Source of the DNA: Haloglomus litoreum
GTDB taxonomy: Archaea; Halobacteriota; Halobacteria; Halobacteriales; Haloarculaceae
Assembly (NCBI RefSeq): GCF_029338515.1
Contig: NZ_CP119988.1
Location: 372,001-436,000, forward strand
DNA length: 64,000 nucleotides
Direction: 5' to 3'
Shown here: positions 18,329 through 35,132 of the stretch, in pieces
Layout of the letters: every line of letters begins with the position of its first letter
Position numbering within the stretch: the first letter of the stretch is position 1
Position numbers and translations under genes: made by a program
Notes under the pieces: model-generated
The model's database searches: none
What the model saw: only the letters and a program-made list of their open reading frames with translations
What the model was told of the DNA's origin: nothing

Positions 18329-20308
<1,980 letters not shown>

Positions 20309-20334
20309 CCCACGAGGGAGTCACGCGACCGGTC

Positions 20335-20618
20335 GGTTCCGGGACCAGGAAGCGCGCTCGCGCTTCCCCGTGGAGGGCCCGAGGCCCGTGCGGCCGAGGG
20401 GCCGGAACACCACAGCGCGAGCGCGGGGAGGTGTGGGGGCACGAGCACTCCGCTGGAACCACCACGCGCGTCGCTCGGCCGAACCAGCAACAGGGCGGGA
20501 CTGAAAGGGGCCGCCCGTCTCGACGAAGCACGGCGACGTAAGCACCGCAGCGGAGCGAACGAAGTGAGCGGAGCGAGGAGCGCAGCGAGCCGCGCAAGTC
20601 GAGCGGGCGGGGGCTTTC
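20335..20618 (+). repeat. Intergenic repeat copy B
   Basis: Contains, in order: GGTTCCGGGACC, a GGAAGCGCG/CGCGCTTCC hairpin, GCGGGGAGGTGTGGGG, AGCACTCCGCTGGAACCACC, the core GGGCGGGACTGAAAGGGGCC (20493-20512), GTAAGCACCGCAGCGGAGCG, GAACGAAGTGAGCGGAGCGA and the end GCGGGGGCTTTC (20607-20618). It mirrors copy A across the ABC exporter. The rest of the 20309-20710 interval has no gene. Confidence 0.8.
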
Positions 20619-20710
20619 TATCCGGTTCCGTCGTGGCTGTCATCGCGAGGATAACTGGCTGGGGCTTTCGACACGACTCTGCCGCTGGTAGTTCCCAATT
20701 CTCAACGTTC

Positions 20711-21212
20711 TCAGGGGTCGCGCATGGGGAACAGCAACAGCCCCGTCATCGTCATCACGGGCGTCCCGTCCTGTTTGCGCGTCGTCGTCTCGCTCTCCAT
20801 GATGCCGACGCCGGCCATCCCGTCCCAGGGCTCCTTGCCGACGACCTCCGTCTCGACGGTCAGCGTGTCGCCGGGCCGCACCGGCTGCTTCCAGCGCAGG
20901 CCGTCGATGCCGGCCGCGCCCATCGCGCCCGAGTCGTCGAGGTAGTTGTCGACGAGCATGCGCATGGTCATCGCCGCCGTGTGCCAGCCGGCTGGCGGAC
21001 TTCGCCGCCAGCTATTCGTTTGCCGGCGAAGCCGGCAAACCCGACGCGATGAGGCCGCCGAACAGCGTCCCCTTCGCCGCCTCGGGGTCCACGTGGAACG
21101 GCTGCGGGTCGTACTGCTCCGCGAACTCGACGATCTCCGCCTCGGTCACCTCGTACTCGCCGAACGAGCGCTCCTCGCCGACCGTGATGTCCTCGTAGTA
21201 CTGGTCTGCCAT
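20711..21212 (-). pseudogene. MaoC-like (R)-hydratase gene split by a 52-bp insertion
   Basis: The two parts together would encode an intact MaoC/hot-dog acyl dehydratase of about 149 residues. The 5' part (21212 to 21040) reads MADQYYEDITVGEERSFGEY, then the hydratase motif with FAEQYDPQPFHVD and GTLFGGLIASG. It then runs into foreign sequence and stops at a TAG (21012-21014). The 3' part resumes as WHTAAMTMRMLVDNYL and continues to LLLFPMRDP. Removing 20988-21039 joins SG to WHTAA in frame, exactly as in the family. Since 52 is not a multiple of 3, the insertion also shifts the frame. The gene is probably inactive. Confidence 0.85.
20988..21039. mobile_element. 52-bp double-hairpin insertion in the MaoC-like gene
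   Basis: Two adjacent inverted repeats make up nearly all of the insert. The first is GCTGGCGG/CCGCCAGC (20991-21012) with a bulged A, extending to a C-TTC-G triloop. The second is a perfect 10-bp stem GTTTGCCGGC/GCCGGCAAAC with loop GAA (21018-21040). The junctions share CC, so either 52 bp was inserted or 50 bp with a 2-bp target duplication. No protein is encoded, so movement would need an enzyme supplied in trans. Confidence 0.7.
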
Positions 21213-21261
21213 ACCCGCCGCCACGTCCGGGTGTGAGTAGGTGTTTCGGTCGCCCCCCTAC

Positions 21262-21711
21262 TCACCACCGTCGCTCGACGCTCTCGACGGCGGCCGCGGG
21301 CGAGTCGACCGCCTCGAAGCCGTCGAACCCGGAGAGGTCGTGCGTGTCCAGCCCCGCGACCGGCGTCCCGTCGTCGAGCGCGAGCGCCAGCTCCGAGAGC
21401 GTCCCCGTCGCGCCGTCGACCGCGACGACGCCGTCGCCGTTGAGGACGACCAGCACGTTCCGGCCGTTCCCCATCCCCGTGACGATGGGTGTGTCGACGT
21501 AGTCGTTCGCGGCGCTCGCGTCGGTCCCCTTCAGGATGCCGACGGTATCGCCGCCGGCCTCCTTCGCGCCACGGCAGGCCGCCTCCATCACGCCGCCGTA
21601 GCCCCCGCAGACGACCGTGTGACCCCGCTCGCCGCAGCACCGCCCGACCGCCCGGGCCCGTTCGTAGGTCGCCTCGTCCACCCGGCTGCCACCGATGACG
21701 CTGATGCGCAT
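21262..21711 (-). CDS. LOG-like protein of the TIGR00725 group
   Basis: A 149-residue Rossmann-fold protein related to lysine-decarboxylase-like/LOG nucleotide phosphoribohydrolases. It starts MRISVIGGSRVD and contains CGGYGGVMEAACRGAKEAGG, the family's phosphate-binding segment. The usual PGGxGTxxE catalytic motif is replaced by DGATGTLSELALAL: the GT and Glu remain but the PGG is lost. That makes classical LOG activity uncertain. The gene is single, downstream of an AT-rich region, and convergent with nothing nearby except the MaoC pseudogene on the same strand. Confidence 0.78.
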   Translation of the reverse strand: MRISVIGGSRVDEATYERARAVGRCCGERGHTVVCGGYGGVMEAACRGAKEAGGDTVGILKGTDASAANDYVDTPIVTGMGNGRNVLVVLNGDGVVAVDGATGTLSELALALDDGTPVAGLDTHDLSGFDGFEAVDSPAAAVESVERRW

Positions 21712-21966
21712 ACGGGGACCCCTCGGGACGTGCCGGCGAAAACCTCCCGGGACGGTGTGGCGGCCCGCAGAAACATATATGAGATGTCATTTCCGCGGGT
21801 GTCCCGTGAACGGAAGCGCTCCCCGGAACGCGGGACAGGACGGTTCCAGTGCGGCTCAATAGGGATATCGATACCTCCACAACCGTCCAGTTCGGTCAGG
21901 TATCTCTGTTCTATAATATGTCGGTTGCAAGTAAGGATTATGCGTGGGCGGCCCCTGGGCCGGCGT

Positions 21967-22134
21967 ATGAGCAGCGAGTCCGGTGGGAACCCGGAGATCT
22001 GTTGTCGTGGCTGTGGCGCGCCCGTGACCGTCGATCCAGGCGAGACAGGTGCGTTCGCGTTCGTCTGCGACGCCTGTGGCGAGCCCGCCCAGGGCCGCTA
22101 CCGCGAGGAGAGCAGGACCATCGTCTGGCAGTAG
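21967..22134 (+). CDS. Small zinc-ribbon protein
   Basis: A 55-residue protein with two Cys pairs, CRGC and CDAC, about 20 residues apart, arranged as a single zinc ribbon. The linker is VTVDPGETGAFAF, and the C-terminus REESRTIVWQ is short and basic. An ATG at 21940 in the same frame would add nine residues; a TATAATA about 25 bp before it supports a leaderless start there, so both starts are plausible. Haloarchaea have many such one-finger microproteins, mostly of unknown function. Confidence 0.65.
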   Translation: MSSESGGNPEICCRGCGAPVTVDPGETGAFAFVCDACGEPAQGRYREESRTIVWQ

Positions 22135-22140
22135 CGCGCG

Positions 22141-22875
22141 CTACCGTCGCGTCGTCACGGCCGACTCGAAGCCGGGGCTGTAGTGGACGGTCGGCTCCCC
22201 GGAGAGGTCGACGCCCAGCGGCCGTCCCAGCGAGTTCTCGCTCACCGCGGCCGTGGCGGGGGCGACCTGCCACGGGTCGCGGTCGATCTCACCGACCCGG
22301 AGGCCGGGGCCCGCCCGCGCGAGGTACGGCGAGGGCTGGCTGGCGTCGGTGAACCAGCGGCGGCGCTCGATACAGAACTCGGCCAGCGACCCCGGCTCGA
22401 CCGGGCCGGCCGCTCCGGCGGGTCCGTAGTCGGCGGCGAACGTCGCGGCTGGCTGCCCGGGCTGGGAGCGGCGACTGCGGAACGCGACGGATTCGATGCC
22501 ATCGTTCGACCGCCGGATATCGACGCTCGTCGCCGCGACGTAGCAGGGCATCCCCATCGCGCTGTGGAGTGCCGCCGCGCCGACCCGGGTCCCGGCGTCG
22601 AGCGAGAGGAAGTAGACGCCCGGCCGGTCGTCGTGCCGGACGTAGGTCCGCAGGTTCACCTCGCCGAACGTCCCGGTGGGCCACAGGCCGGCGGGCAGCG
22701 CCCGGGGGCGGGCCGCGGTCACCTCGAACGCCAGCACGCTGGCCCAGGCCGACCCGTCGTACCGGTCGAGTTCGAGGCCGTCGGGCAGGTGCGGCCGGAG
22801 CTGGTCGTCGGCCACGGGCCAGTGGGCGAACAGCACCGCCCGTCCGGTGGTCGTCAGGGCGGTGTCCATGCGCAT
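22141..22875 (-). CDS. DUF2071 (YqjF-type) family protein
   Basis: A 244-residue protein of the DUF2071 family, of acetoacetate-decarboxylase-like fold. It has FAHWPVADDQLRPHLPDGLE close to the N-terminus, where the family has its W-PV...L...LP pattern, then FGEVNLRTYVRHDDRPGVYF and LDAGTRVGAAALHSA. No function has been settled for the family. Start 22875 was chosen over the longer frame; an ATG six bases further in (22869) is equally possible. The gene is divergent from the acyl-CoA dehydrogenase gene, with about 108 bp between the starts. Confidence 0.8.
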   Translation of the reverse strand: MRMDTALTTTGRAVLFAHWPVADDQLRPHLPDGLELDRYDGSAWASVLAFEVTAARPRALPAGLWPTGTFGEVNLRTYVRHDDRPGVYFLSLDAGTRVGAAALHSAMGMPCYVAATSVDIRRSNDGIESVAFRSRRSQPGQPAATFAADYGPAGAAGPVEPGSLAEFCIERRRWFTDASQPSPYLARAGPGLRVGEIDRDPWQVAPATAAVSENSLGRPLGVDLSGEPTVHYSPGFESAVTTRR

Positions 22876-22983
22876 AGGCCCCCTTGCGGGCGGGGGGTCT
22901 TGCCGTTTCGGGGTGGCCACCCGGCCCGGTTTCCGGCCCCCGGTGGGGGGAACCTACAAGCCGCCCCCACCCGCCCCTGGGGC

Positions 22984-24132
22984 ATGGTCACGCTCACCGA
23001 CGAGCAGCGGATGCTGGTGGACGTACTGGACGACATCGCACGCGACGAGTTCGCCGCCGACGCCTTCACCCACGACGGCTTCCCCTGGGAGAACGTCCGG
23101 ACCCTCGCCGAGCACGACCTCTGGGCCGTCAACCTCGGCGAGGAGTGGGGCGGTGGGGGGCTCTCGGAGTTCGCCGCCGTCCTCGCCATCGAGACGGTCG
23201 GCGCGGTCTGCCCGGAGACCGCGAACGCCATCTACGGGCAGACGATGGTCGCGCCACGGGCCATCGAGATGTTCGGCTCCGAGACGCTCAAGGAGCGGTA
23301 CCTGCCACCGGTCTGTGCCGGCGAGTCCGCCATCGCCATCGGCATCAGCGAGCCGGCCGCCGGGAGCGACGCGGGCGCGATGGCGACCGCGGTGCGGGAG
23401 ACCGACGACGGGCTCGTCCTCTCGGGCGAGAAGATCTGGCTCTCCTACGTCCCCGCCAGCGACGCGGCCGTCGTCTGGGCGCGGTTCCCCGACGACACCC
23501 TCGGGACCGTCCTCGTCGACCTGGACACGCCAGGGGTCGACGTCCACGAGCACTACACCAACATGGCGGGCCACACGCAGAGCCACCTGTTCTTCGAGGA
23601 CGTGCCCGTCCCCGAGGAGCAGGTGCTCGTCCGGGGGAAGCAGGCGCTCAAGGAGCAGCTGAAGGCACTCAACTGGGAGCGGGTCGGGAGCGCCGCGTAC
23701 GCCACCTCGATGGCGCGCTGCGCGCTGGAGCACGCCATCGACTACGCCGGCGACCGCGAGCAGTTCGGCCAGCCCATCGGCGAGTTCCAGGGGCTCCGGT
23801 GGGAGGTGGCCGACGCTGTCAAGGAGTACACCGCTTCGCGGGCGCTCACGCACGACGCGGCCACGAACACACATGGCGAGGGCGACACGCCCGCCCACCC
23901 GGACCGCCTGCGCGCGAGCATCGCGAAGTTCCACGCCTCCGAGACCGCAGAGCGCGTCGTCAGCGACTGCCTGCAGGTGTTCGGCGCGACGGGCTACCAG
24001 CAGGGCCACCCGCTGGAGTTCCTCTACCGGCTCGCCCGGGGGCGCCGCATCGCCGCCGGCACGGACGAGATCATGCGCGAGAACATCGCCGACGAGGTCT
24101 TCGACGGCGGCGGCCTGCCGTCGCTGGGGTGA
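22984..24132 (+). CDS. Acyl-CoA dehydrogenase family protein
   Basis: A 382-residue FAD flavoenzyme of the acyl-CoA dehydrogenase superfamily. It shows the substrate/FAD segment IAIGISEPAAGSDAGAM near the middle, IWLSYVPAS, and the C-terminal helical domain with DREQFGQPIGEFQGLRWEVAD. The C-terminal FAD segment reads RIAAGTDEIMRENIADEV. The residue that is the catalytic Glu in medium-chain enzymes (xEGT) is Ala here, so the base may lie elsewhere, as in isovaleryl or long-chain enzymes. The likely role is oxidation of an acyl-CoA, with electrons passed to ETF. The gene is monocistronic. Confidence 0.88.
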   Translation: MVTLTDEQRMLVDVLDDIARDEFAADAFTHDGFPWENVRTLAEHDLWAVNLGEEWGGGGLSEFAAVLAIETVGAVCPETANAIYGQTMVAPRAIEMFGSETLKERYLPPVCAGESAIAIGISEPAAGSDAGAMATAVRETDDGLVLSGEKIWLSYVPASDAAVVWARFPDDTLGTVLVDLDTPGVDVHEHYTNMAGHTQSHLFFEDVPVPEEQVLVRGKQALKEQLKALNWERVGSAAYATSMARCALEHAIDYAGDREQFGQPIGEFQGLRWEVADAVKEYTASRALTHDAATNTHGEGDTPAHPDRLRASIAKFHASETAERVVSDCLQVFGATGYQQGHPLEFLYRLARGRRIAAGTDEIMRENIADEVFDGGGLPSLG

Positions 24133-24183
24133 GAGCTGCGGCCGGGGCTGAAACTTATCACCTGTCACGGCCCACATCGAGGT

Positions 24184-24519
24184 ATGAGCGGTGCGCTGGA
24201 CGGTCACGAGCGCGCGGTCGAGGAACTCCGCGAGCGACTCGGGTCGGCCGACATCCCCGGGCTGGATCGGCTCATCCTGTTCGGCAGCGTGGCCCGCCGC
24301 GACCACCAGCCGGACTCCGATGTCGACGCGCTGGCCGTCCTTGCCGACGACGCTCCCGGCGAAACGGGCGAACGCGTGCGGGACATCGCGTACGACGTGA
24401 TGCTCGAGACGGGGACCGTCGTCAGCGTCCAGGTGGTCCATGCCGGGACGTTCGCCGAGCGGTCGGACCACCCGTTCTTCCGACGGGTCCGGAGCGAGGG
24501 GACGGCGCTGTATGGTTGA
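24184..24519 (+). CDS. Minimal nucleotidyltransferase (MNT) antitoxin candidate
   Basis: A 111-residue nucleotidyltransferase with the catalytic motif LFGSVARRDHQPDSDVDALA (GS-x10-D-x-D). The third acidic position is not clear. In HEPN/MNT pairs, known as type VII toxin-antitoxin systems, this protein AMPylates the HEPN RNase near its active site and silences it. It overlaps the HEPN gene at 24512 by 8 bp, so the two are made together. An alternative is a role in antibiotic or phage response. The pairing and motif are seen; the activity is inferred from the family. Confidence 0.88.
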   Translation: MSGALDGHERAVEELRERLGSADIPGLDRLILFGSVARRDHQPDSDVDALAVLADDAPGETGERVRDIAYDVMLETGTVVSVQVVHAGTFAERSDHPFFRRVRSEGTALYG

Positions 24520-24901
24520 CGACCGCTACGTCCGCGAGGAGCTGGACAAGGCCCGGGACGCCCTCACCGATGCCGAGGCGCTCCTCGCCGCGGACGGAAG
24601 CACCGAGGGCGTCGTCAACCGGCTCTACTACGCCGCGTTCCACGCCGCCCAGGCTGTACTCTACGACAGGGATGTCGAACCCGGGTCCCACGGCGGCGTC
24701 CGGAACCGGTTCGGCGAGGAACTCGTCCTCGAGGGGCCGGCCACGCGCGAACAGGGGCGACTACTGACCACGCTCGCAGACCTCCGCCAGCAGGCGGACT
24801 ACGGATACGAACCCATCTCGGCCGACCCGGGCGAACTGCACGACCGGACTCGGGCGTTCGTCGAGGCGATGACTGACCTGGTGGATGCGGGGACCGACTG
24901 A
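24512..24901 (+). CDS. HEPN-domain RNase toxin candidate
   Basis: A 129-residue all-helical HEPN protein. The active-site motif is present as RLYYAAFH (R-x6-H, about residues 36-43 in the protein), followed by AAQAVLYDRDVEP. Residues HGGVRNRFGEELV and YGYEPISADP match the C-terminal half of the family. Many such proteins cleave mRNA or tRNA when freed from the MNT partner. ATG 24512 gives a normal start and the 8-bp overlap with the MNT gene. Confidence 0.88.
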   Translation: MVDDRYVREELDKARDALTDAEALLAADGSTEGVVNRLYYAAFHAAQAVLYDRDVEPGSHGGVRNRFGEELVLEGPATREQGRLLTTLADLRQQADYGYEPISADPGELHDRTRAFVEAMTDLVDAGTD

Positions 24902-24953
24902 ACTCGGCCCCGGAGCCGTTCGGGCTTTCCGGTCGCGGCCCCTACACGCAGGT

Positions 24954-25367
24954 ATGGACACGCTCGAACTCCCGACCGGCGAGACGGTGACGCCGGAGGA
25001 CGTCTTCTGCTACGAGGGCTACCCCTACCGGTTCGTGCCCGCCGACGCCCGCGAGGGAAGCAACGCCCGTATCGAGGGGCCCGGCCCGGGCCCCGACGAG
25101 GTGCAGTTCTACCTCGTCCCGCTGTACTGGGGCGGCGGCGACATGGACGTCCCCTTCCCGGACCGCGAGGCGCTGGTCGAGCAGTGGGACGACGCGCGCG
25201 GCGTCCTGACCGACGTGGAGTGGCGGGACTGGCTGGTCGAATCGCGTGCCGACGACCGGTTCGACGACGCCGAACTCGACGCCATCGCCGCGGAACTCGG
25301 GCTCGAGGACGGCCGTGGTGGCGGGGGCGGTGGGCTCCTCGCGCGGGTCCGGCGGCTGCTCGGATGA
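24954..25367 (+). CDS. Hypothetical protein, 137 residues
   Basis: A soluble acidic protein. The N-terminal half is beta-rich and aromatic (EDVFCYEGYPYRFVPADA and EVQFYLVPLYWGGG), giving an SH3-like impression. The C-terminal half is helical (LVEQWDDARGVLTDVEWRDW) and ends in a glycine run plus a basic tail, LLARVRRLLG. I do not recognise the family. ATG 24954 follows 52 bp after the HEPN gene; no shared function is implied. Confidence 0.6.
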   Translation: MDTLELPTGETVTPEDVFCYEGYPYRFVPADAREGSNARIEGPGPGPDEVQFYLVPLYWGGGDMDVPFPDREALVEQWDDARGVLTDVEWRDWLVESRADDRFDDAELDAIAAELGLEDGRGGGGGGLLARVRRLLG

Positions 25368-25505
25368 TCAGGGCCACGACCCCCGTGCTACCGACCTGCC
25401 CCGATAACTCAATAGCCAACAGATTGCTCCGTAATTCTCAATATATTCTCAATAACGCAACGAAAAGCGCTTAGTGTACAGGATATCTGCGATAAAACGA
25501 GAACA

Positions 25506-25574
25506 ATGTCCGGGTCGAGTGGCGACGTGTGTCGTCGGCTGGCGACCGTCGGCAGACGGGTGGTTGTAGCGTGA
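25506..25574 (+). CDS. Possible 22-residue leader ORF before ppk1
   Basis: ATG 25506 opens a short frame whose TGA overlaps the GTG at 25571 (GTGA). An AT-rich region with TTAGTGTA about 28-35 bp upstream could place a leaderless transcript start at this ATG. The peptide (MSGSSGDVCRRLA...) has no recognisable features. This is analogous to the arrangement before the DtxR-family gene but may be coincidence. Confidence 0.25.
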   Translation: MSGSSGDVCRRLATVGRRVVVA

Positions 25575-28081
25575 CCGACGAGGTGGTCGAGCGGGTCGCC
25601 GCCGAGCCGCTTCCCGACCCGGACGAGGACCCGGACCTCACCGACTCGGCGTACTACCTGAACCGGGAGCTCTCGGAACTGGCGTTCCAGCGCCGGGTCC
25701 TGCAGGAGGCGCTCGACGAGCGGAACCCGCTGCTGGAACGGGCGCGCTTCCTGGGCCTGTTCACCAAGAACATCGACGAATTCGTGATGAAGCGGGTGGG
25801 TGGGCTGAAACAGCAGATGGACGCGGGCGTCACCGAGCGCACGGTCGACGGCCGGACCCCACGCGAGCAGTGGGAGGCCGTGCTGGACGCACTGGGGCCG
25901 ATGCTCGACGCCCAGACGGACTGTTTCACCGGCGAGTTCCGACGTGCGCTCGCCGACGCGGGCATCCACCTCCACACCTACGAGGACCTCACGTCCGGGC
26001 AGCGGGCGGACCTGCGCGACTACTTCGAGGCGTCGGTCCTGCCGACGCTGACGCCGCTGGCGTTCGACCCGGCGCACCCGTTCCCGTTCATCTCGAACCG
26101 GTCGCTGTCGCTGGCCGTCGTCACGCGCCGCGACGACGAGGACGAACCGACGTTCACGCGGGTAAAGATCCCACAGAACCGCCCCCGGCTCGTGGAGGTC
26201 GGCGACGCCGAGTACGTCCTGCTGGAGGAGGTCGTCCGCGAGAACCTGGACCTGCTGCTCCCGAGCGTCGAGATCCTGGACACGTCGCTGTTCCGGCTCA
26301 CGCGGAACGCGGAGGTGCGGCGCAACGAGGAGGTCGCCGAGGACCTCATCGAGATGATCGAGGAGGTGCTCGAACAGCGGCGGTTCGCGACCGCCGTCCG
26401 ACTGGAGGTGGAGGCCGACGCGCCCCAGCGCGTCGTGGACATCCTGTCCGAGCAACTCGACCTCGCCGAGCGCGAGGTGTTCCGGCGGGAGGGCATCCTC
26501 GACTACCGGCCGCTGCTGGAACTCGCCGACCTCGACCGACCGGACCTGAAACTCCCCGCGTGGACGCCGCTGGCGCACCCGCGGCTGGAGCGGGGGAGCG
26601 GGCGGCCCGCGGTCCCCGGCTCCGGCAAGGAGGAGCGCCCCTCCGTCTTCAGCGAGGTGGCGCGCGACGACGTGCTGCTCCACCACCCGTACCACTCGTT
26701 CGAGGAGACCTTCCAGCGGTTCCTCGAGGAGGCCGCCGAGGACCCGGACGTGCTGGCGATCAAGGCCGCAATCTACCGGACGGCGAGCGACTCGCGGGTC
26801 ATCCAGAGCCTCATCGACGCGGCCGACAACGGCAAGCAGGTCGCGGTGATGGTCGAGCTGAAGGCCCGCTTCGACGAGGAGAACAACCTCGACTGGGTCC
26901 GCACGCTGGAGGAGGAGGGCATCCACGTCGCCTACGGCACCATCGGGCTGAAGACCCACACGAAGACGGCGCTCGTCGTCCGGGATGAGTCCGGGCGCGG
27001 CGAGGGCGACGCCAACACCGCCGACCCGAGCGGTGTGCGGCTCTACTCCCACGTCGGCACGGGCAACTACCACTCCGAGACCGCGAAGGGGTACGTCGAC
27101 CTGGGCCTCCTCACCGCGGACCGCGACATCGGCCGCGACCTGGTGAAGGTGTTCAACTTCTTCACGGGCCCGTCGCTGGACGAGGATTTCCGGAAGCTGC
27201 TCATCGCGCCGGTGACGATGCGTCGCGAGTTCACGCGCTACATCAGGCGGGAGGCCGAGCACGCCCGCGCCGGCCGACGTGCCCGCATCGTCGTCAAGGC
27301 GAACGGGCTGGAGGACCCCGACATCGTCCGCGAACTGTACGAGGCGGCCCGCGCGGGCGTCGAGATCGACCTCGTCGTCCGGGACATCTGCCGGCTCCGC
27401 CCTGGCATCGAGGGCGTCAGCGATACGGTGCGGGTCCACAGCATCGTCGGGCGGTTCCTCGAGCACTCGCGGATCTTCTACTTCGAGAACGGCGGCGACC
27501 CCGAGTACTACACCGGGAGCGCCGACTGGATGACCCGCAACCTGGACAGCCGGGTCGAGGCCGTCGTCCCCGTCGAGGATTCGGCCATCCGCGAGCAGTT
27601 GCGGTTCAACCTCCACCTCAACCTCTCGGACAACCGCAAGCGCTGGACGATGAACCCGGACGGCTCGTACGTCCAGCAGCGCCCCGGCGACGCCCCCGAG
27701 GTGAACACCCAGGCGATCCTGATGGACTGCACCCGGGAGGCGAACCGCCGTGAGGACGTCCACACGGGTATCGTCCCCGAGCACGAGCACGTCGACGGCG
27801 ACCTGCTCGTCGAACCCGTCGATGACGCCGACACGGACGCGAACGGGCGGACCACGGTGACGAGCGGGGACGACCCCACCGCGGCCGACGGGACCGGCGA
27901 CACCGCCGTCACCGCCGACCCGGACGACGACCTCCCGGCCGTGCTGGCGGGCGCCCGCGACCGCTGGTACATCCCCGACAGCAGCCGGTACGCGTACGCG
28001 GTCCGGACGCCGGACGGCGACCGGCGCTACTTCCGGACCGCCGAGGGTGCGGCCGACGCCGTCGAGCGGTTCTACGGCTGA
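25571..28081 (+). CDS. ppk1: Polyphosphate kinase 1
   Basis: PPK1 reversibly transfers the terminal phosphate of ATP to polyphosphate. The protein (836 residues from GTG 25571; a GTG at 25529 is possible) has all four domains. The N-terminal helical domain starts SAYYLNRELSELAFQRRVL. The middle contains the phospholipase-D-like fold with SHVGTGNYHSETAKGYVDLG, whose first His is the phospho-accepting residue, and RVHSIVGRFLEHSRIFYF with YYTGSADWMTRNLDSRVE. Two acidic low-complexity inserts (about 495-505 and about 755-795) are haloarchaeal additions. No exopolyphosphatase or phosphate-transport gene is adjacent. Confidence 0.94.
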   Translation: MTDEVVERVAAEPLPDPDEDPDLTDSAYYLNRELSELAFQRRVLQEALDERNPLLERARFLGLFTKNIDEFVMKRVGGLKQQMDAGVTERTVDGRTPREQWEAVLDALGPMLDAQTDCFTGEFRRALADAGIHLHTYEDLTSGQRADLRDYFEASVLPTLTPLAFDPAHPFPFISNRSLSLAVVTRRDDEDEPTFTRVKIPQNRPRLVEVGDAEYVLLEEVVRENLDLLLPSVEILDTSLFRLTRNAEVRRNEEVAEDLIEMIEEVLEQRRFATAVRLEVEADAPQRVVDILSEQLDLAEREVFRREGILDYRPLLELADLDRPDLKLPAWTPLAHPRLERGSGRPAVPGSGKEERPSVFSEVARDDVLLHHPYHSFEETFQRFLEEAAEDPDVLAIKAAIYRTASDSRVIQSLIDAADNGKQVAVMVELKARFDEENNLDWVRTLEEEGIHVAYGTIGLKTHTKTALVVRDESGRGEGDANTADPSGVRLYSHVGTGNYHSETAKGYVDLGLLTADRDIGRDLVKVFNFFTGPSLDEDFRKLLIAPVTMRREFTRYIRREAEHARAGRRARIVVKANGLEDPDIVRELYEAARAGVEIDLVVRDICRLRPGIEGVSDTVRVHSIVGRFLEHSRIFYFENGGDPEYYTGSADWMTRNLDSRVEAVVPVEDSAIREQLRFNLHLNLSDNRKRWTMNPDGSYVQQRPGDAPEVNTQAILMDCTREANRREDVHTGIVPEHEHVDGDLLVEPVDDADTDANGRTTVTSGDDPTAADGTGDTAVTADPDDDLPAVLAGARDRWYIPDSSRYAYAVRTPDGDRRYFRTAEGAADAVERFYG

Positions 28082-28235
28082 CCGAGGCGAGTGACTCGCG
28101 GCCCGACCCCGGGTCGATTCACGCCGAGAGTGTCCGAACGCGCCACCTGGGAGTGCCCGAACACGCTGTATCGGGGTGGCGGCCGGGGAACCGAAGGTCT
28201 AAACGGGTCGCCACCATGGCTACCGAGGGTTCGAC

Positions 28236-29309
28236 ATGACTGCAGACGACCCCGCCATCCGCACGGGGCTCTCCTACGACGACGTACTGGTCGTCCCGGC
28301 ACGCTCGCCCGTGGACTCCCGGAGCGACGTCTCGCTCGCCACGCACCTCACCGACGACATCGCGCTGGAGGCGCCGCTCCTGAGCGCGCCGATGGATACC
28401 GTCACGGGGCCGGACCTCGCCGTCGCGCTCCACGAACTCGGCGGGTTCGGCACCATCCACCGCTTCCAGACTGTCGGCGACCAGGTCGCCGCCGTCGAGG
28501 AGACCGTCGACCGCGGTGCGCGGGTCGGCGCCGCGCTCGGCATCGACGAGCGGTTCCGTGACCGCGCCGAGCGTGTCCTCGAGGCCGGCGCCGCGTGCCT
28601 GATGGTCGACGTCGCGCACGGCCACATGGAGGCCGCACTCGACACCGTCGAGGCGGTCGCCACCGAGTTCGACGCGCCGCTCGTCGCGGGCAACGTCGCC
28701 ACGGCCGCGGGCGTGGCCGACCTCGCGGCCGCCGGCGCCGACTGCGTCAAGGTCGGCATCGGTCCCGGGAGCCACTGCACCACGCGCGAGGTGGCCGGCG
28801 CCGGCGTCCCGCAGTTCACGGCCGTCCGTGACTGCGCCCGCGCGGCCGACGAGTACGGCGTCCGGACCATCGCCGACGGCGGCATCAGCGGCTCGGGCGA
28901 CGCCGTGACGGCGCTGCTCGCCGGCGCGGACACGGTGATGATGGGCGGGTTCTTCGCCGGCACTGAGGCGGCCCCCGGTGAACTCGTCGAGTACGAGGGG
29001 AGCCGCTACAAGCGCTCGCACGGGATGGCCTCCACGTCGGCGAACGAGGCGCGCTCGGACAAGGCCGCCGAGGAGTCCGCCCCCGGCGCCGACGAGGGCG
29101 TCGCCGGCCTCGTGCCGTACCGCGGGCCGCTCCTCGATGTCGTCTCGGAGTTCCTCGCGGGTGTCCGCTCGGGCATGAGCTACGCCGGCGGGCACACGCT
29201 GCCCGAGGCCCGCGACGGCGTGGAGTTCATCCGCGTCACGGAGGGCGCGAAGGCCCGCTCGGGCGCACACACGTTCGTCCGCGACGAGATGCGCCCCGCC
29301 GGGGACTAG
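28236..29309 (+). CDS. guaB: GuaB-family enzyme without CBS domains (IMP dehydrogenase or GMP reductase)
   Basis: A 357-residue TIM-barrel enzyme acting on purine nucleotides. It contains the opening [14 protein letters not shown], the substrate loop [17 protein letters not shown] with the catalytic Cys, and [27 protein letters not shown]-type phosphate-binding strands. The C-terminal [17 protein letters not shown] and the Arg/Tyr-rich flap resemble IMP dehydrogenases. The regulatory CBS pair found in the usual haloarchaeal GuaB is absent, so this may be the second paralogue or a GMP reductase. The start follows an AT-poor leader. Its neighbours do not settle the choice. Confidence 0.88.
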
Positions 29310-29420
29310 TCACTCCCCCTGCCCGCCACATCTGCGGCAACGTATCGGATGGGACAGTTCCTGGCTCGTCGCTCGAACACGGGTGGTATCTCGCCCGGCT
29401 ACGAAGCCGCCGCGCCCGCG

Positions 29421-30518
29421 TCACTCCCCACCCGCGTACTCCGGGATCCGCGCCGACCGGTCCGACCCCTCGTGGAAGGGCAGTTCGACCACCTCGGCAG
29501 GGACCTCCGTGCCGTCCACCCGGACGGTGACCTCGCTCGCATCCAGCCCGAAGTCGACGTAGGCCATCGCTGCGGGCCCCTCCAGCGTCGGCGACTCGAC
29601 CGCGCGCGTGACCTCGCCAGCCGCGCTGTCGCCGTCGAAGACGGCCGCGCCGGCCTCCGGGACGGTCCCGGGGAGTAGCCCGACCAGTCGCTGCGAGGGT
29701 CGGCCCTGGTTCTCCACCTTCGAGACGACCTCCTGGCCGACGTAGCAGCCCTTCTCGAAGTCGAGCGCGTTCCGGACCCCGGCGACGTTCGGGATCTGCC
29801 CCTCCAGCTCCGTGTCGAACAGCGGCGTGCCCGCCTCGAGCGCGAGCGTCTCGTAGACGTGGTAGCCGAAGGGGACCGCGTTCAGCCCCCGCGTGAGGAG
29901 CGTGTCGAACACCTCCTCGGCGCCGTCGGCCGCGCAGATGACCTCGTACCCCTCCTCGCCGAGGAGACCGTCGGTCCGGACCACCGTGACGCCGGCGTCA
30001 CCCATCGACCCGCGGACGAAGGAGAGCTGCCGGTCCGGTGACCCGGCGCCGTTCAGCACCGAGGCGACCTTCTCCGTCGAGGTGGGGCCGTGGACGCCGA
30101 AGACCCCGAAGTCGGCCGACGCGTTCCGGATCTCGACGTCCTGGATGAACACCTTCTCCGACCAGTCCTCGATCAGCGGTTCGGCGCGGGCCGGCGGCGT
30201 GAACACCAGCAGCTGCTCGCCGGCGTTGTAGACGTACATGTCCGTCGTGATGGCGCCTTGCGGGTCCAGCAACAGCGCGTAGCAGCCCTCGCCGTCGGTA
30301 GCGGGGACGCGGTTCGAGACCGCGTCGTCGACGAAGTCGTGGCGGTCCTCGCCGGTGATGGCGACGACGCCGTACCCCATCTCGACGACGCCGACCCCGT
30401 TCCGGACGGCGGTCGCGGTTCGCTCGGGCCGGCGGTACCGCTCGACGACGCGGCGCCTGTCCGCGAGCTCGCGGAAGGTCGCGCCGTGCGCCTCGTGATC
30501 TGCCGCGACGACGGTCAT
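29421..30518 (-). CDS. Folate-binding YgfZ/GcvT-like protein
   Basis: A 365-residue protein with the aminomethyltransferase fold. The COG0354 signature KGCYVGQEVVSKVENQGRPS is present near residue 255, which marks YgfZ/IBA57-type folate-binding proteins that assist Fe-S cluster maintenance rather than glycine cleavage. Other landmarks are VAITGEDRHDFVDDAVSNRVP at the N-terminus and GVFGVHGPTSTEKV. Glycine-cleavage partners are not nearby. A bona fide GcvT is an alternative, but the signature favours YgfZ. ATG 30518 was chosen because residues upstream in the longer frame are basic and unlike the family. Confidence 0.85.
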   Translation of the reverse strand: MTVVAADHEAHGATFRELADRRRVVERYRRPERTATAVRNGVGVVEMGYGVVAITGEDRHDFVDDAVSNRVPATDGEGCYALLLDPQGAITTDMYVYNAGEQLLVFTPPARAEPLIEDWSEKVFIQDVEIRNASADFGVFGVHGPTSTEKVASVLNGAGSPDRQLSFVRGSMGDAGVTVVRTDGLLGEEGYEVICAADGAEEVFDTLLTRGLNAVPFGYHVYETLALEAGTPLFDTELEGQIPNVAGVRNALDFEKGCYVGQEVVSKVENQGRPSQRLVGLLPGTVPEAGAAVFDGDSAAGEVTRAVESPTLEGPAAMAYVDFGLDASEVTVRVDGTEVPAEVVELPFHEGSDRSARIPEYAGGE

Positions 30519-30652
30519 ACCCGCCGGTAGCGGGTCTCGGGGGATAACTCCGACGCCATCGTGGCGCGGGACGGGGACCCGGGCGTCCGCCGGTGGGGGG
30601 AGCGGGGCCGGCATCGCGGCGGTGAGGGAGGGGTTGCCGCGGGCCGTCGCCG

Positions 30653-30796
30653 CTACAGGTCGTACCGGACGATGTCCGTCGACTCGCAGGCCGGGCAGCC
30701 GGATTCGGCGGGGTCGACCGTCGTGCCACAGCGGCGGCACTCGTGGAAGCCGGCCGACCGGTTCCCGCGGAGGGCCGCGACGACGCGTGCGATCAT
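30653..30796 (-). CDS. 47-residue zinc-ribbon microprotein
   Basis: A tiny frame not obvious in a length-filtered search. It reads MIARVVAALRGNRSAG, then ECRRCGTTVDPAESGCPACES and ends DIVRYDL. Two CxxC knuckles 13 residues apart form one zinc finger, as in other haloarchaeal one-finger microproteins. The GC-rich codon pattern and ATG start support it. Its start is about 135 bp upstream of the YgfZ gene's start on the same strand, so the two may be co-transcribed. Function is unknown. Confidence 0.7.
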   Translation of the reverse strand: MIARVVAALRGNRSAGFHECRRCGTTVDPAESGCPACESTDIVRYDL

Positions 30797-30955
30797 GTCC
30801 CCTCGAATACGCCTCGAGCGTAAATACCCCACCGAACCGCTTCGGAAGTAGAGAACGCCCGAGGGCGACGGGGTCGTCCCAGAGCCGTCAGCCGGATGTC
30901 AGACGCCGGGCCCGGGGGTCCGCGGGGCGCGGCGGCCGGCGGACAGCCGTCCGGA

Positions 30956-31255
30956 TCAGAGCGGCAGCCGCTCCAGTACCCGGTCGACGAGCGACGGCTC
31001 GGTCTCCTCGGCCTCGCCGGGCTCGGGAACCACGCGCTCGTCGGGGTAGATGCGTGTCCGGCTCCCCTCCTCCTCGACGCGGATGAGGCCGGCCTCCTTC
31101 AGCCCGCCGAGCGCCGTCTCGATGGTGTCGATGTCGAGGTCGGTCCCCGACCGGAGTTCGAACACCGTCATACCCTCCTCGTGGCGGTCGACGAGCGCGT
31201 CGAGCACCGCGACCTGCGGCTCGTCACGGTCCCGGTACTCGGGCTTCGCCTGCAT
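30956..31255 (-). CDS. Winged-helix DNA-binding-like protein, 99 residues
   Basis: A small protein with a MarR/ArsR-like helix-turn-helix: VAVLDALVDRHEEGMTVFEL, then SGTDLDIDTIETALGGLKEAGLIRVEEEG as recognition helix and wing. The C-terminal 30 residues are acidic and Pro/Glu-rich, ending LVDRVLERLPL. ATG 31255 was chosen because the family begins MQAKPEYRDRDEPQVAV; the longer frame upstream is not similar. It is probably a haloarchaeal transcription factor; targets are unknown. Confidence 0.75.
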   Translation of the reverse strand: MQAKPEYRDRDEPQVAVLDALVDRHEEGMTVFELRSGTDLDIDTIETALGGLKEAGLIRVEEEGSRTRIYPDERVVPEPGEAEETEPSLVDRVLERLPL

Positions 31256-31462
31256 GGTCGACCGTAGTACGTGCCCGGACATAAATCCGCGCGGGCGGTC
31301 CGCGGTGTCGGCCCCGTGGCCGGCCGGCACGGCTGCTGTCGCGGGTGCCCACGGAGCGCCGCCCCGCCGCCGCGGACGGTGTCTGACGCACGACTGACGC
31401 CCGCACGTCGGGGGTCACACCCTGCAGTACGTTTAAATTCGTCTCGGAGCCAGGGTCGAGCA

Positions 31463-32491
31463 ATGGGGCTGAAGTGTTCGCTCTTCGGGCACACGTTCGA
31501 CGAGCGCGATGTCGTCCGGGAGCGCGAGTCCAAGGGGAGCGAGGTCGTCACCGTCGCGAGGGATGTCGAGCGGTGCACGGAGTGTGGCGCCACGCGCGTC
31601 GTCTCGACGAACAAGGAGGTCGTCTCGACCGCGGGCGCCACCGCGGACGGCGGCGTCGACTCGAGCCCGACGCTCCGGGCGCCCGGCGACGAGCCGGACG
31701 GCCCGGACACGGCAGACGCCTTCGACGCCACCGACCAGCTGGACGCGAGGATCGGGGCGGGCGACGCCAGCGGCGGCGCCGGTGGCACGACCGCGGCGGA
31801 GGGGAGCGACGCCGACGCCTTCGGCGGGCTCGTCGACCGGAGCGACGCGAGCGACGAGACCGACACGGGCCACGATGCGACGGCGACGCCCGATACCGCG
31901 ACGCCCGACACCGGGGCGGACGAGGGTGTCGAGCTGATGACCGGCGACGAGGACGACGCGGCGGCCGGCCCGACCGACGTGGCCTCCGAGCCCGAGCCCA
32001 CAGCGCCCGGGCCCGCGGAGCCCGAGGGCGCCGACGACAGGCCCGACCCGGAGACGGAGGACGCGGAGATCCTCACGGACGAGCCCGAGCCCGACCGTGC
32101 GCCGGGTCAGTGGCCGGGGGACGACGCGGGCGAGGCCTGGGAACCGGAGCCGCTGACCGACGACGACAGCGAGCCGGACACCGGGGCCGACGACCACGAC
32201 GCGGACGGGACCGCCGGCTCCGGCGAGACCGACGAGACGGCCGACCCGGGCGAGGCGTCGGCCGAGATACTCGACGGGGCCGACGACGGTGACACGAGCG
32301 AGACACCGGACACGGCGGCCGAGCCGGCGCCGGACCTCGAACCGGAACCCGCCGCGACCGCCACCTTCACCGTCCCCGACGGGCACTACCGCTGCCCGGA
32401 GTGCGGCCACACCATCCCCGCCGAGTCCTCGTTCCGCCGGGGCGACGCCTGCCCGGAGTGCATCGAGGGCTACCTCGAAGCGGGCGAGTAG
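31463..32491 (+). CDS. Two-zinc-finger protein with long acidic disordered linker
   Basis: A 342-residue protein built as finger, linker, finger. The N-terminal finger reads MGLKCSLFGHTFDERDVVRE and CTECGATRVV. About 240 residues of Asp/Glu/Thr/Pro/Gly-rich sequence without hydrophobic core follow. The C-terminal ribbon is YRCPECGHTIPAESSFRRGD followed by CPECIEGYL. This layout is known from conserved haloarchaeal proteins of unknown function. The acidic linker is extreme even for a halophile and should be fully disordered. The start is 5-25 bp after an AT-rich stretch (GTTTAAATTCG), which fits a leaderless transcript. Confidence 0.75.
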   Translation: MGLKCSLFGHTFDERDVVRERESKGSEVVTVARDVERCTECGATRVVSTNKEVVSTAGATADGGVDSSPTLRAPGDEPDGPDTADAFDATDQLDARIGAGDASGGAGGTTAAEGSDADAFGGLVDRSDASDETDTGHDATATPDTATPDTGADEGVELMTGDEDDAAAGPTDVASEPEPTAPGPAEPEGADDRPDPETEDAEILTDEPEPDRAPGQWPGDDAGEAWEPEPLTDDDSEPDTGADDHDADGTAGSGETDETADPGEASAEILDGADDGDTSETPDTAAEPAPDLEPEPAATATFTVPDGHYRCPECGHTIPAESSFRRGDACPECIEGYLEAGE

Positions 32492-32634
32492 GACGGGGAC
32501 CCGACCCCGGCGCGCAGCGGTCGTCCTGAACCGTATCCAGCCCCCACCAGCAGCCTCAGCGCCGCGGCGTGTCTCCCCCCGTGGCGGGGCGGCAGGCCGA
32601 AATCGGTAAACCCCTCCTCCGCAAACCGGCGCGC

Positions 32635-33027
32635 ATGGAGGAGTACAAGATGCGCCGGGGCGAGTATCTCGAAGAGCGGGTGCCCGACCTGAAGGGGACC
32701 ATCGAGGACTACTTCGGGCCCATCACGGGCACGCAGGAGTTCAAGGGGAGCGACCTGTACGTCGTCGGCGAGCCGAAGAACCCCGTGTTCGAGAAGGTCG
32801 TCGCGGGCGCCGTCGCCTACTCGGGCAAGAAGGACAAGCTCGCGGTCGACTTCGTCGAGCGCGACCTCGAGAGCCTGATGGAGACCGGTGACGTGGACGC
32901 CGCCGGCGACGCCAACAGCGCGAAGAACGAGTTCCTGCTGGAGTGCACCGGCCGCGACGCCAAATCCCGTCGCGAGTCGATGAAGCGCGCCGTCGAGGAC
33001 GACGCCGACACGCCGGACGACGTCTGA
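32635..33027 (+). CDS. DUF5611-type conserved archaeal protein
   Basis: A 130-residue protein starting MEEYKMRRGEYLEERVPDLK. It has a middle segment FKGSDLYVVGEPKNPVFEKVVAGAV and a basic-acidic tail with CTGRDAKSRRESMKRAVEDD. It is a compact alpha/beta protein conserved in haloarchaea, function unknown. The family identification is by memory of its N-terminal pattern and is not certain. ATG 32635 follows a short leader containing GGTAAACCCC. Confidence 0.7.
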   Translation: MEEYKMRRGEYLEERVPDLKGTIEDYFGPITGTQEFKGSDLYVVGEPKNPVFEKVVAGAVAYSGKKDKLAVDFVERDLESLMETGDVDAAGDANSAKNEFLLECTGRDAKSRRESMKRAVEDDADTPDDV

Positions 33028-33239
33028 ACGGAACCGCGACCGACTCCTCTCGAACCCCCCGTCCGAGCGGCGGCACCATCCGGGAGACCGAACCGCTACC
33101 AGCGGCCCAGCCACCACCGCTACCAGCGCTCCAGTCACCCCCACGAACGGGATGATGCCTGGTCCGTGGGCCGTGCGAGCGAGTCCCGCTCGTTGGGCGG
33201 ACCGCAACCACTAACGGCCGGCCACCCCCGGGTTCGGAT

Positions 33240-34844
33240 ATGCAACTGGCCGGAATGGCGTCCAACCGCGGGCGCAACCTGCTGCACATCGCCGACCGCG
33301 CGCCGGGCGGCGCCGAGTTCGCCGTCGTCCTCGCGAACGAGGAGGGCGCCCCCGTGCTGGAGGCGGCCTCGGAGCGTGGCATCCCGACCGAGGTCGTCGT
33401 CCGCGAGGAGGGCGAGTCCCGCGAATCGCACGAGGAACGCGTCCGCGAGCGGCTGGCGGGCTACGAGTTCGACCTCGTCTGCCTCGACGGCTACATGCGC
33501 ATCCTCACGGAGTCGTTCCTCAAGGCGGTCCCGACGACGCTCAACGTCCACCCGTCGCTCCTGCCGGCGTTCCCGGGGATGGACGCCCACGAGCAGGTAC
33601 TCGACGCGGGCGTCTCGGTCACGGGCTGTACCGTCCACGTCGTCGACGAGACGGTCGACGGCGGCCCCATCGTCACGCAGGAACCCGTCCCCGTCTACGA
33701 CGATGACGACGCGGCGGACCTGAAAGAGCGGGTGCTGTACGAGGCGGAGTTCGCCGCCTACCCCCGCGCCGTCGAGTGGTTCGCCGAGGACCGCATCACC
33801 GTCGACCACGACACCGGCACCGTCAGCGTCGACGGGGACACCGCCACTCGCGACGACGGGGAGCCGTTCCCGCGTCGCCGGCTCGCGGCCGACGACCGCG
33901 TCGCCGACCTCCGGTACGGGGAGAACCCCCACCAGGCCGCCGCGCTGTACGCCGACGCCACCTGCGAGGAGGCCAACGTCGTCGACGCCCCGCAACTGAA
34001 CGAGGGCGCGAAGGCACTCTCGTACAACAACTACAACGACGCCGACGGGGCGCTCGACCTCATCAAGGAGTTCGACGAGCCCGCCGCCGCCGTCATCAAG
34101 CACACCAACCCCGCGGGCTGTGCCACGGCCGAGACGCTCGCGGACGCCTACGCGGACGCCCTCTCGACGGACCCGATGAGCGCCTTCGGCGGCATCGTCG
34201 CCCTCAACCGGGAGTGCGACGCCGCGACCGCCGAGCAGATCATCGACTCGTTCAAGGAGGTCGTCGTCGCGCCCGGCTACACCGACGCCGCGCTCGACGT
34301 GCTGTTCGAGAAGGAGAACCTGCGCGTGCTGGATGTGGGCGACGAGGAGACGCTCTCGGAGACGAGCGAGCGCCACACCGAGAAACCGCTCGTCGGCGGC
34401 CGACTTGTCCAGGACCGCGACCTGCAGGACATCGGGGCCGCGGACCTGGAGTTCGTCACCGAGCGCGAGCCCACGGACCCGGAGGTCGAGACGATGCTGT
34501 TCGCCTGGAAGACGCTCAAGCACGTCAAGTCCAACGGCATCCTGTTCGCGCAGGGGACCGAGACGGTCGGTGTCGGGATGGGGCAGGTCTCGCGCGTCGA
34601 CGCCGTCCGCCTCGCCGCGATGAAGGCCGACGAGCACGCCGAGGGCAAGTCCGCCGAGGGCGCCGTGATGGCCTCTGACGCCTTCTTCCCGTTCCCGGAC
34701 GGCATCGAGGAGGCCGCCGACGCCGGCATCGAGGCCGTCATCCAGCCCGGCGGGAGCGTCAACGACGAGGACGTCATCGAGGCCGCCGACGAGCACGGGA
34801 TGGCGATGGCGTTCACCGGCCAGCGGTCGTTCCGGCACGACTGA
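33240..34844 (+). CDS. purH: PurN-AICAR transformylase fusion enzyme of purine synthesis
   Basis: A 534-residue bifunctional enzyme. Residues 1-190 are a PurN-like glycinamide ribonucleotide formyltransferase domain, with NVHPSLLPAFPGMDAHEQVL (catalytic His and Asp) and GCTVHVVDETVDGGPI. Residues about 215-534 are the AICAR transformylase half of PurH (RYGENPHQAAALY, LSYNNYNDADGAL, KHTNPAGCATAET, SAFGGIVALNRECD). The IMP cyclohydrolase (MGS-like) domain of bacterial PurH is absent; archaea generally use PurO for that step. Both domains use a formyl donor on successive one-carbon steps, so the fusion is logical. The gene is monocistronic and followed by an oligo-T run. Confidence 0.92.
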   Translation: MQLAGMASNRGRNLLHIADRAPGGAEFAVVLANEEGAPVLEAASERGIPTEVVVREEGESRESHEERVRERLAGYEFDLVCLDGYMRILTESFLKAVPTTLNVHPSLLPAFPGMDAHEQVLDAGVSVTGCTVHVVDETVDGGPIVTQEPVPVYDDDDAADLKERVLYEAEFAAYPRAVEWFAEDRITVDHDTGTVSVDGDTATRDDGEPFPRRRLAADDRVADLRYGENPHQAAALYADATCEEANVVDAPQLNEGAKALSYNNYNDADGALDLIKEFDEPAAAVIKHTNPAGCATAETLADAYADALSTDPMSAFGGIVALNRECDAATAEQIIDSFKEVVVAPGYTDAALDVLFEKENLRVLDVGDEETLSETSERHTEKPLVGGRLVQDRDLQDIGAADLEFVTEREPTDPEVETMLFAWKTLKHVKSNGILFAQGTETVGVGMGQVSRVDAVRLAAMKADEHAEGKSAEGAVMASDAFFPFPDGIEEAADAGIEAVIQPGGSVNDEDVIEAADEHGMAMAFTGQRSFRHD

Positions 34845-34852
34845 CCACGAGC

Positions 34853-34858
34853 TTTTTT
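34853..34858 (+). terminator. Oligo-T terminator after the purine fusion gene
   Basis: TTTTTT lies 9 bp after the purH stop. Archaeal RNA polymerase terminates at such T runs, usually without needing a hairpin. Confidence 0.55.
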
Positions 34859-34875
34859 CCGGCTCGGGTGCCCCC

Positions 34876-35096
34876 GGCGCGGCTTCGCCGCGCCTGCGGA
34901 CACCACTCGCCGTCGTGGAATCGCGGGGCGATTCCACGGGCAATCAGAACGCTCCGCGTTCTGATGACGCCAAAAAACGTTCAGAAAAAAGGCCGGCACT
35001 CGGGCGCCTGCGGCGCCCTCGTGCCGGTGAGGGCGAGAGTCCGAACGCCGTCGGAACTCGCTTCCGACGGAAGTGAAACCGCGCCGAAGGCGCGGT
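34876..35096. repeat. Cluster of six perfect or near-perfect hairpins
   Basis: Six inverted repeats occur in 221 bp, four with 3-nt loops. They are GGCGCGGC/GCCGCGCC, loop TTC (34876-34894); CGTGGAATCGC/GCGATTCCACG, loop GGG (34914-34938); ATCAGAACGC/GCGTTCTGAT, loop TCC (34943-34965); CCGGCAC..GGGCGCC/GGCGCCC..GTGCCGG, loop TGC (34993-35027); CCGTCGGAA/TTCCGACGG, loop CTCGC (35048-35070); and ACCGCGCC/GGCGCGGT, loop GAA (35078-35096). Stem sequences all differ, so this is not a tandem duplication. No coding frame is convincing. Oligo-A/T runs lie between hairpins 3 and 4. Confidence 0.85.
34972..34990 (-). terminator. Two oligo-T runs, minus strand, inside the hairpin cluster
   Basis: On the minus strand TTTTTT occurs at 34990-34985 and again at 34977-34972. 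They lie about 145 bp after the stop of the surface-protein gene at 35133 and could end its transcript after hairpins 6, 5 and 4. Confidence 0.5.
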
Positions 35097-35132
35097 ATGC
35101 ATCCCTCGCCTGTCCCCAGCACCGTTATCGAG

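Follow-up and report, generated by a model that had tools for sequence, protein, structure and literature searches.

A 52-bp segment interrupts a maoC hydratase gene, which encodes a fatty-acid enzyme, of the haloarchaeon Haloglomus litoreum. We read this segment, with a probability of roughly 87%, as a small mobile element, non-coding and non-autonomous, that entered the gene recently and consists of two independent hairpins with a 5-nt AT-rich linker between them. By sequence comparison, the insert belongs to a dispersed non-coding family, for which we found no published name and which is called M2 here. The window, the whole 64,000-nucleotide stretch of DNA analysed, belongs to a genome (G000) that is a single contig of 4.70 Mb. 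The gene, the insert, and the parts of the insert are located as follows.

20711 to 21212, minus strand: maoC gene, which the insert divides into a 5' part (21212-21040) and a 3' part (20987-20711); the intact orthologue is L021 in genome G002
20988 to 21039, no strand: 52-bp insert (it may equally be placed at 20989-21040 or 20990-21041, the latter in register with the rest of the M2 family)
20991 to 21012, plus strand: hairpin 1, GCTGGCGG-ACTTCG-CCGCCAGC, with the stem common to the whole M2 family
21013 to 21017, plus strand: linker TATTC, whose minus-strand GAATAG gives an in-frame TAG stop
21018 to 21040, plus strand: hairpin 2, GTTTGCCGGC-GAA-GCCGGCAAAC, a variable stem with compensatory changes among copies

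The interrupted maoC gene and the fold of the insert

When the 52 bp are removed, one minus-strand frame of 149 residues runs across the join (IASG/WHTAAMTMRML) and matches Pfam MaoC with 85.5 bits (E 2.9e-24), in accordance with an earlier note on this DNA, which had claimed that the removal restores a perfect MaoC frame. The unedited frame runs off the gene past IASG and ends at the linker TAG of the insert (...IASGLPASPANE, then the stop). Since the insert shifts the frame and brings a stop, the hydratase copy encoded by the split gene is expected to be inactive. Besides the two maoC halves, four further MaoC-domain genes are present in G000 (E <= 1e-30), so the loss of this copy is affordable. 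The empty site is identical for three placements of the insert (shifts 0, 1, and 2), a placement ambiguity of 2 nt. Therefore, the edge duplication at maoC is CC at most, as had been proposed.

In a search of 145 relatives, an uninterrupted maoC orthologue with 94% identity is found in G002, a genome of the same genus in which the gene order and the upstream neighbour are kept. In addition, the insert is absent at the corresponding site of those more distant MaoC homologues whose site was read. Therefore, the insertion is derived in the lineage of G000. The lack of any empty site in relatives would have refuted the earlier note, and the sister genome G002 provides one. The rejoined maoC differs from the G002 gene in 31 silent nucleotides and nine amino-acid codons, the differences being mostly silent on either side of the insert, and carries no further damage. 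Since no other damage is present, the insertion event is probably recent.

Hairpin 1 of the insert has an 8-bp stem and a 6-nt loop, ACTTCG, which is the TTC triloop of the family with one extra A. Hairpin 2 has a perfect 10-bp stem and a GAA/TTC triloop. The insert had been described as two inverted repeats with TTC- and GAA-type triloops; the two hairpins and the triloop of hairpin 2 stand, but the loop of hairpin 1 has six nucleotides. The two hairpins form on either strand. The folding z is -5.1 as DNA and -5.2 as RNA, and equal stability is reached in 0 of 200 shuffles. No Rfam family matches at E <= 1 in window positions 20000-36000.

The M2 family and its filled and empty sites

M2 copies are about 51-53 bp long and consist of a G, the hairpin GCTGG(C)CGGC nnn GCCG(G)CCAGC, a linker, a second stem-loop, and a C. 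The linker is about 5 nt long and AT-rich (TATTC, TAATA, TATAC, GAATA). The second stem is of the type GATTGTCGGC, ATTTCTCGGC, or GTTCGTCGGC; the maoC copy has GTTTGCCGGC, which is unseen in all other copies compared. The loops are found in inverted forms (GAA/TTC, GGA/TCC, TAC/GTA). In agreement with the earlier description, an element of this size has no coding capacity and no typical IS end, and the IS200/605 ends in these genomes are unlike M2.

Copies of the insert, which the earlier note had proposed to seek in the genome and its relatives, are found in G000 and across the genus. Searched by itself with BLAST, the insert matches partial copies at other places in G000 (E 6e-6 to 6e-3). 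A covariance model built from three copies gives genome-wide copy numbers that are lower bounds: at least about 7-8 full copies each in G000, G001, and G002 and at least about 18 in G003, with strands merged and a best E of 4e-14 among the copies of the genus (G000-G003). Additional copies in G000 have a nested element inside (L092-L096). At 1e-6, and with both strands counted, each of the four genomes of the genus has at least 8-24 matches, and no match is found in 67 of the 86 genomes of the family that were searched. Across the order, 6 of 117 genomes have M2 matches. Weaker matches in other genera have the same double-hairpin layout with stems of their own and lie mostly within larger intergenic repeats. 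In G084, a related double hairpin occurs twice in tandem, 55 bp apart (L135, L147). A pattern of hairpin 1 plus TATTC has 55 matches across genome contigs, mostly by chance; three of them are in 'Halobacteriales archaeon QS_4_70_19'. Within the window, the model gives no further match at E < 0.05 beyond the maoC insert.

Among 24 distinct second hairpins, 96.7% of the cells are paired, and six of the ten pairs show double-sided changes. The covariation score of hairpin 2 is 0.408; shuffles give 0.160 +/- 0.021, and the signal collapses in slid controls. Therefore, what is conserved in M2 is the pairing, not the sequence. The shuffles leave the relatedness of the copies in, and the evidence that the stems are kept by compensatory changes is strong but not a formal proof. 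Such changes can also arise by palindrome correction in replication, without selection or an enzyme.

Five orthologous pairs of filled and empty sites are available (maoC, a MOSC gene, and three intergenic sites), with the filled copies in four different genomes. The second genic copy is as follows.

L107, about 1500-1551, G001: in-frame M2 copy in a MOSC-like gene, adding 17 residues

This 51-bp copy leaves the MOSC-domain gene open (GTFAS-RFLGSAERLSAGGEAAS-RDGSD), and no interruption is present in the orthologues of G000, G002, and G003. The MOSC identity comes from reading the protein, without a Pfam scan, and the open-span test on joined loci, which is noisy in GC-rich DNA, served only to pick this copy. 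An 8-nt sequence, CGCCAGCC, is repeated at the insertion site; the repeat is ambiguous. At each of the three intergenic sites (L068/L236, L054/L239, and L101/L253), one species has the element and another lacks it; all three lie downstream of orthologous genes whose proteins are 95-98% identical.

On sequence comparison alone, these sites show that M2 inserted independently at different positions in different species of the genus. They likewise show that M2 is multi-copy and inserts precisely 3' of CC, both at maoC and in the intergenic units described below, with a duplication of at most 2 nt at maoC. The suggestion that a tiny palindromic element moves is thus borne out by the other copies in the genome and genus and by the further orthologous filled and empty sites.

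Two other loci resemble in-frame copies. At L109 of G001 (about 1500-1552), the protein has a metallo-beta-lactamase fold and may be about 16 residues longer than in G002 because of a decayed double hairpin. At L145 of G057, a genome from another genus, an S9-type peptidase gene holds an in-frame double hairpin of this layout (about 1500-1555), directly before VIVDIHGGP. Both look like decayed or related copies; the matter is not settled.

Intergenic repeat units and hairpin clusters

Most M2 copies reside in two kinds of larger intergenic repeat, here type a and type b. One unit of each lies in the window, and two further double-hairpin modules, M3 and M4, are found in such units.

20497 to 20621, plus strand: type a unit, GGGACTGAAAGGGGCCGCCC...GGGCTTTC, M2-empty, just downstream of the broken maoC
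34849 to 34987, plus strand: type b unit, GAGCTTTTTT...AAAAAACGTTCAGAAA, directly following a stop codon; without M2 at 34904/34905, the point that M2 occupies in other units
34913 to 34970, plus strand: M4, 58-bp double-hairpin module, CGTGGAATCGC/GCGATTCCACG - GGCA - ATCAGAACGC/GCGTTCTGAT, filling the type b unit of the window
L093 and L095 around 1530-1600, L061 around 1420, L237, and L003 around 1580: locations of M3

Type b units read GAGCTTTTTT...CTCGGG...AAAAAACGTTCAGAAA, with the end also written AAAAAACGTTCAG, and occur in at least 25 places in G000. In most cases read, they lie at or directly after stop codons, and they may serve as 3'-end or terminator structures. M2 is present in 3, M4 in 4, and M3 in 2 of 25 units in G000, and 17 of the 25 have none of the three. 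M2 is placed between CC and (A/G)CT(C/T)G. At the point of M4, M4-empty units read ACTCGCCG-CAAAAAACG.

Type a units (GGGACTGAAAGGGGCCG...) number at least 54 in G000. M2 is present in 4 of the 30 units read in this genome, positioned just before (G)CTCGAC or GCCTCGAC, and in two of these four M3 is inside the first hairpin of M2. Within each type of unit, M2 always occupies the identical point. M3 is a 56-bp double hairpin ending in GACG that inserts after GGCG inside hairpin arms, including those of M2. When M3 is removed from the nested copies, a perfect M2 hairpin is restored, and other GGCG sites are filled by the same M3 type. The type a unit of the window presents, at about 20530-20545 (gcacggcgacgtaag), the empty site that matches the M3-filled L003.

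The insert had been likened to the hairpins of the array at 34876-35096. The resemblance is one of kind, but the array is M2-empty and holds M4, a different double hairpin, along with other hairpin modules; we therefore reject the reading of the array as M2 copies. The related proposal, that mobile palindromes explain how intergenic clusters arise, is supported by partly filled units and nested insertions, except that this array is not built from M2. Because equivalent unit sites are either filled or empty, and because M3 and M4 lie within units and M3 also inside M2 hairpins, clusters grow by insertion. As far as can be judged from these loci, the intergenic hairpin clusters look like piles of insertions, mixtures of several double-hairpin elements. 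The M2 copies in intergenic units could have spread partly with the units and not by their own movement.

Mobilisation and relation to known elements

How M2 moves is inferred. At roughly even odds, a hairpin-recognising enzyme, probably of the HUH/Y1 kind, would act in trans and move M2 in the form of a folded single strand. Enzymes of the IS200/605 type recognise folded single strands. If M2 is recognised by its folded hairpins, this would account for copies that keep their stem pairing and the lengths of loop and linker although the stem letters change. No mobilising enzyme for M2 was found among the Y1/TnpB loci tested in G000 and the Y1 loci of relatives. G000 has one Y1 and ten TnpB loci, with end hairpins CCCACGACTTCAGTCGTGGG or others, all unlike M2. 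Near the Y1 loci of the genus relatives no M2 is present, and the end hairpins of those IS200/605-type elements are unrelated. The M2 model gives no match better than E 0.018, which is chance level, around the Y1 or TnpB genes tested. No Y1 transposase passes the cut-off in G028 and G037, two genomes with related double hairpins. On the unrelated end hairpins at the Y1/TnpB loci of G000 and the Y1 loci of relatives, an origin of M2 from these IS200/605 elements is rejected.

M2 might instead have spread without a dedicated transposase, by template switching at replication forks or in repair with few matching target bases, which we consider unlikely but worth keeping in view. The insertion points of both genic targets have GCCAGCC, which is the outer arm of M2 itself and, in the window, has about 2.6e-4 occurrences per position on each strand (roughly one in 4,000). 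Rare by expectation and present at both targets, this match could mean microhomology-driven copying. The 8-nt repeat at the MOSC site, the inverted loops, which are a mark of palindrome flipping, and the lack of a fitting transposase among those examined point the same way. However, the GCCAGCC match is absent from the intergenic targets, and the regular ends and target points (CC before M2, one point in all repeat units) are more enzyme-like. A broader proposal, in which a class of about 50-58 bp double hairpins (M2, M3, M4, and counterparts in other genera) enters genes and each other without a known kind of transposase (through template switching driven by the hairpins, say, or a single-strand enzyme as yet unknown) and so builds the haloarchaeal clusters, remains tentative, a possibility we rate slightly above template switching for M2.

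The closest described elements are the 52-bp terminal-only PATEs of ISHwa23 and HqIRS46 in Haloquadratum walsbyi, whose palindromes derive from IS605-type transposon ends and which may be mobile, without target duplication (PMC3119063). Like M2, they are haloarchaeal, about 52 bp long, palindromic, non-coding, and strain-specific in their insertions, with no clear target duplication (PMC3119063). If M2 were such an element, it would be the fused ends of a core-deleted IS200/605-type transposon, moved by the TnpA of that transposon, and size and palindromes agree with this. M2 also lacks a transposase gene and coding room, and its target duplication is CC at most at maoC, with the 8-nt MOSC repeat ambiguous. 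However, M2 has two different stems and a fixed-length linker instead of a single fused palindrome, and its hairpins match no IS200/605 end found in G000 or the genus. In particular, the TnpB/TnpA elements of G000 end in CCCACGACTTCAGTCGTGGG hairpins, none of them M2-like, and the M2 model near the tested genes stays at E 0.018. The relatedness to IS605 ends that defines PATEs is thus unmet, as compared with the G000 ends and the genus Y1 loci; the Haloquadratum sequences were not compared. We regard a PATE origin, from an IS200/605 parent now lost, as doubtful, more so than template switching.

Other small palindromes fit in part. CGTC-tagged REPs, described from five bacterial phyla, and Rickettsia palindromic elements of about 150 bp are, like M2, short and palindromic, have no known transposase of their own, and lie mostly between genes and sometimes in frame within them (PMC3733652, PMC10969869). 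In-frame insertion into a gene, as in these elements, is seen in the 51-bp MOSC copy of G001, and the maoC copy is out of frame. The CGTC tag, however, is absent from M2, which has G at one end and C at the other; where maoC meets the insert, the CGTC is part of the gene. M3 and M4 have GACG, which is complementary to CGTC, at or near their end, and this offers a lead. GTAG REPs, REPINs, and BIMEs, moved by RAYT transposases, are also short, non-autonomous, mostly intergenic hairpin DNA (PMC3733652, PMC3116915). Neither GTAG nor CTAC is found at the ends or hairpin base of the aligned M2 copies, and no RAYT-like (Y1) gene is flanked by M2 among the one Y1 gene of G000 and the genus Y1 loci. 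The SMR-A/B elements of Haloquadratum, 80-110 bp with terminal inverted repeats, are transposase-free, have an unknown mobiliser, and enter the palindromes of other elements, as M3 enters M2 (PMC3119063). M2 differs from them in its length of about 51-53 bp and its two separate hairpins, and meets neither the size nor the terminal repeats. MITEs carry terminal inverted repeats that are related to a known transposon and, in most cases, a target duplication; M2 does not fit, its ends being only G...C and its two hairpins not being inverted copies of one another. Judged by these comparisons, M2 behaves like small non-autonomous palindromes, yet misses one defining feature of the PATE, CGTC, and GTAG kinds, and is assigned to none.

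Two readings concern the maoC copy only. T4 gene 60 and the mitochondrial byps are known cases of bypass, and the insert could be tolerated in the same way, or by splicing, with MaoC still produced. The gap lies between the Gly codons GGT and GGC, at which ribosomes might take off and land, the length and hairpins recall known bypass elements, and the gene is otherwise undamaged, with mostly silent differences on both sides. Still, a recent insertion is expected to show no further decay, M2 copies are found mainly between genes, the MOSC copy, the other genic one for which an empty site can be compared, simply keeps the frame, and the four further MaoC-domain genes make the loss affordable. 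Tolerance is therefore very improbable. An assembly or sequencing artefact, judged without reads, can be practically dismissed, since the insert has the family architecture but its own letters (the GTTTGCCGGC stem), hence is no misplaced copy of another locus, and the genome is a single contig.

Prokaryotes commonly have small palindromic repeats; to our knowledge, direct evidence of their movement, in the form of filled and empty orthologous sites, is uncommon. In the literature on haloarchaeal palindromic elements we found only the Haloquadratum work, and little is described of small palindromic elements in archaea beyond that organism. For genome annotation, frameshifts of this kind can be real insertions and not sequencing errors. 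M2 offers a defined short substrate and several filled and empty sites for seeking the unknown mobiliser. One class of element ties together a newly disrupted gene, a protein with an in-frame insertion, and the puzzling clusters of intergenic hairpins in haloarchaea.
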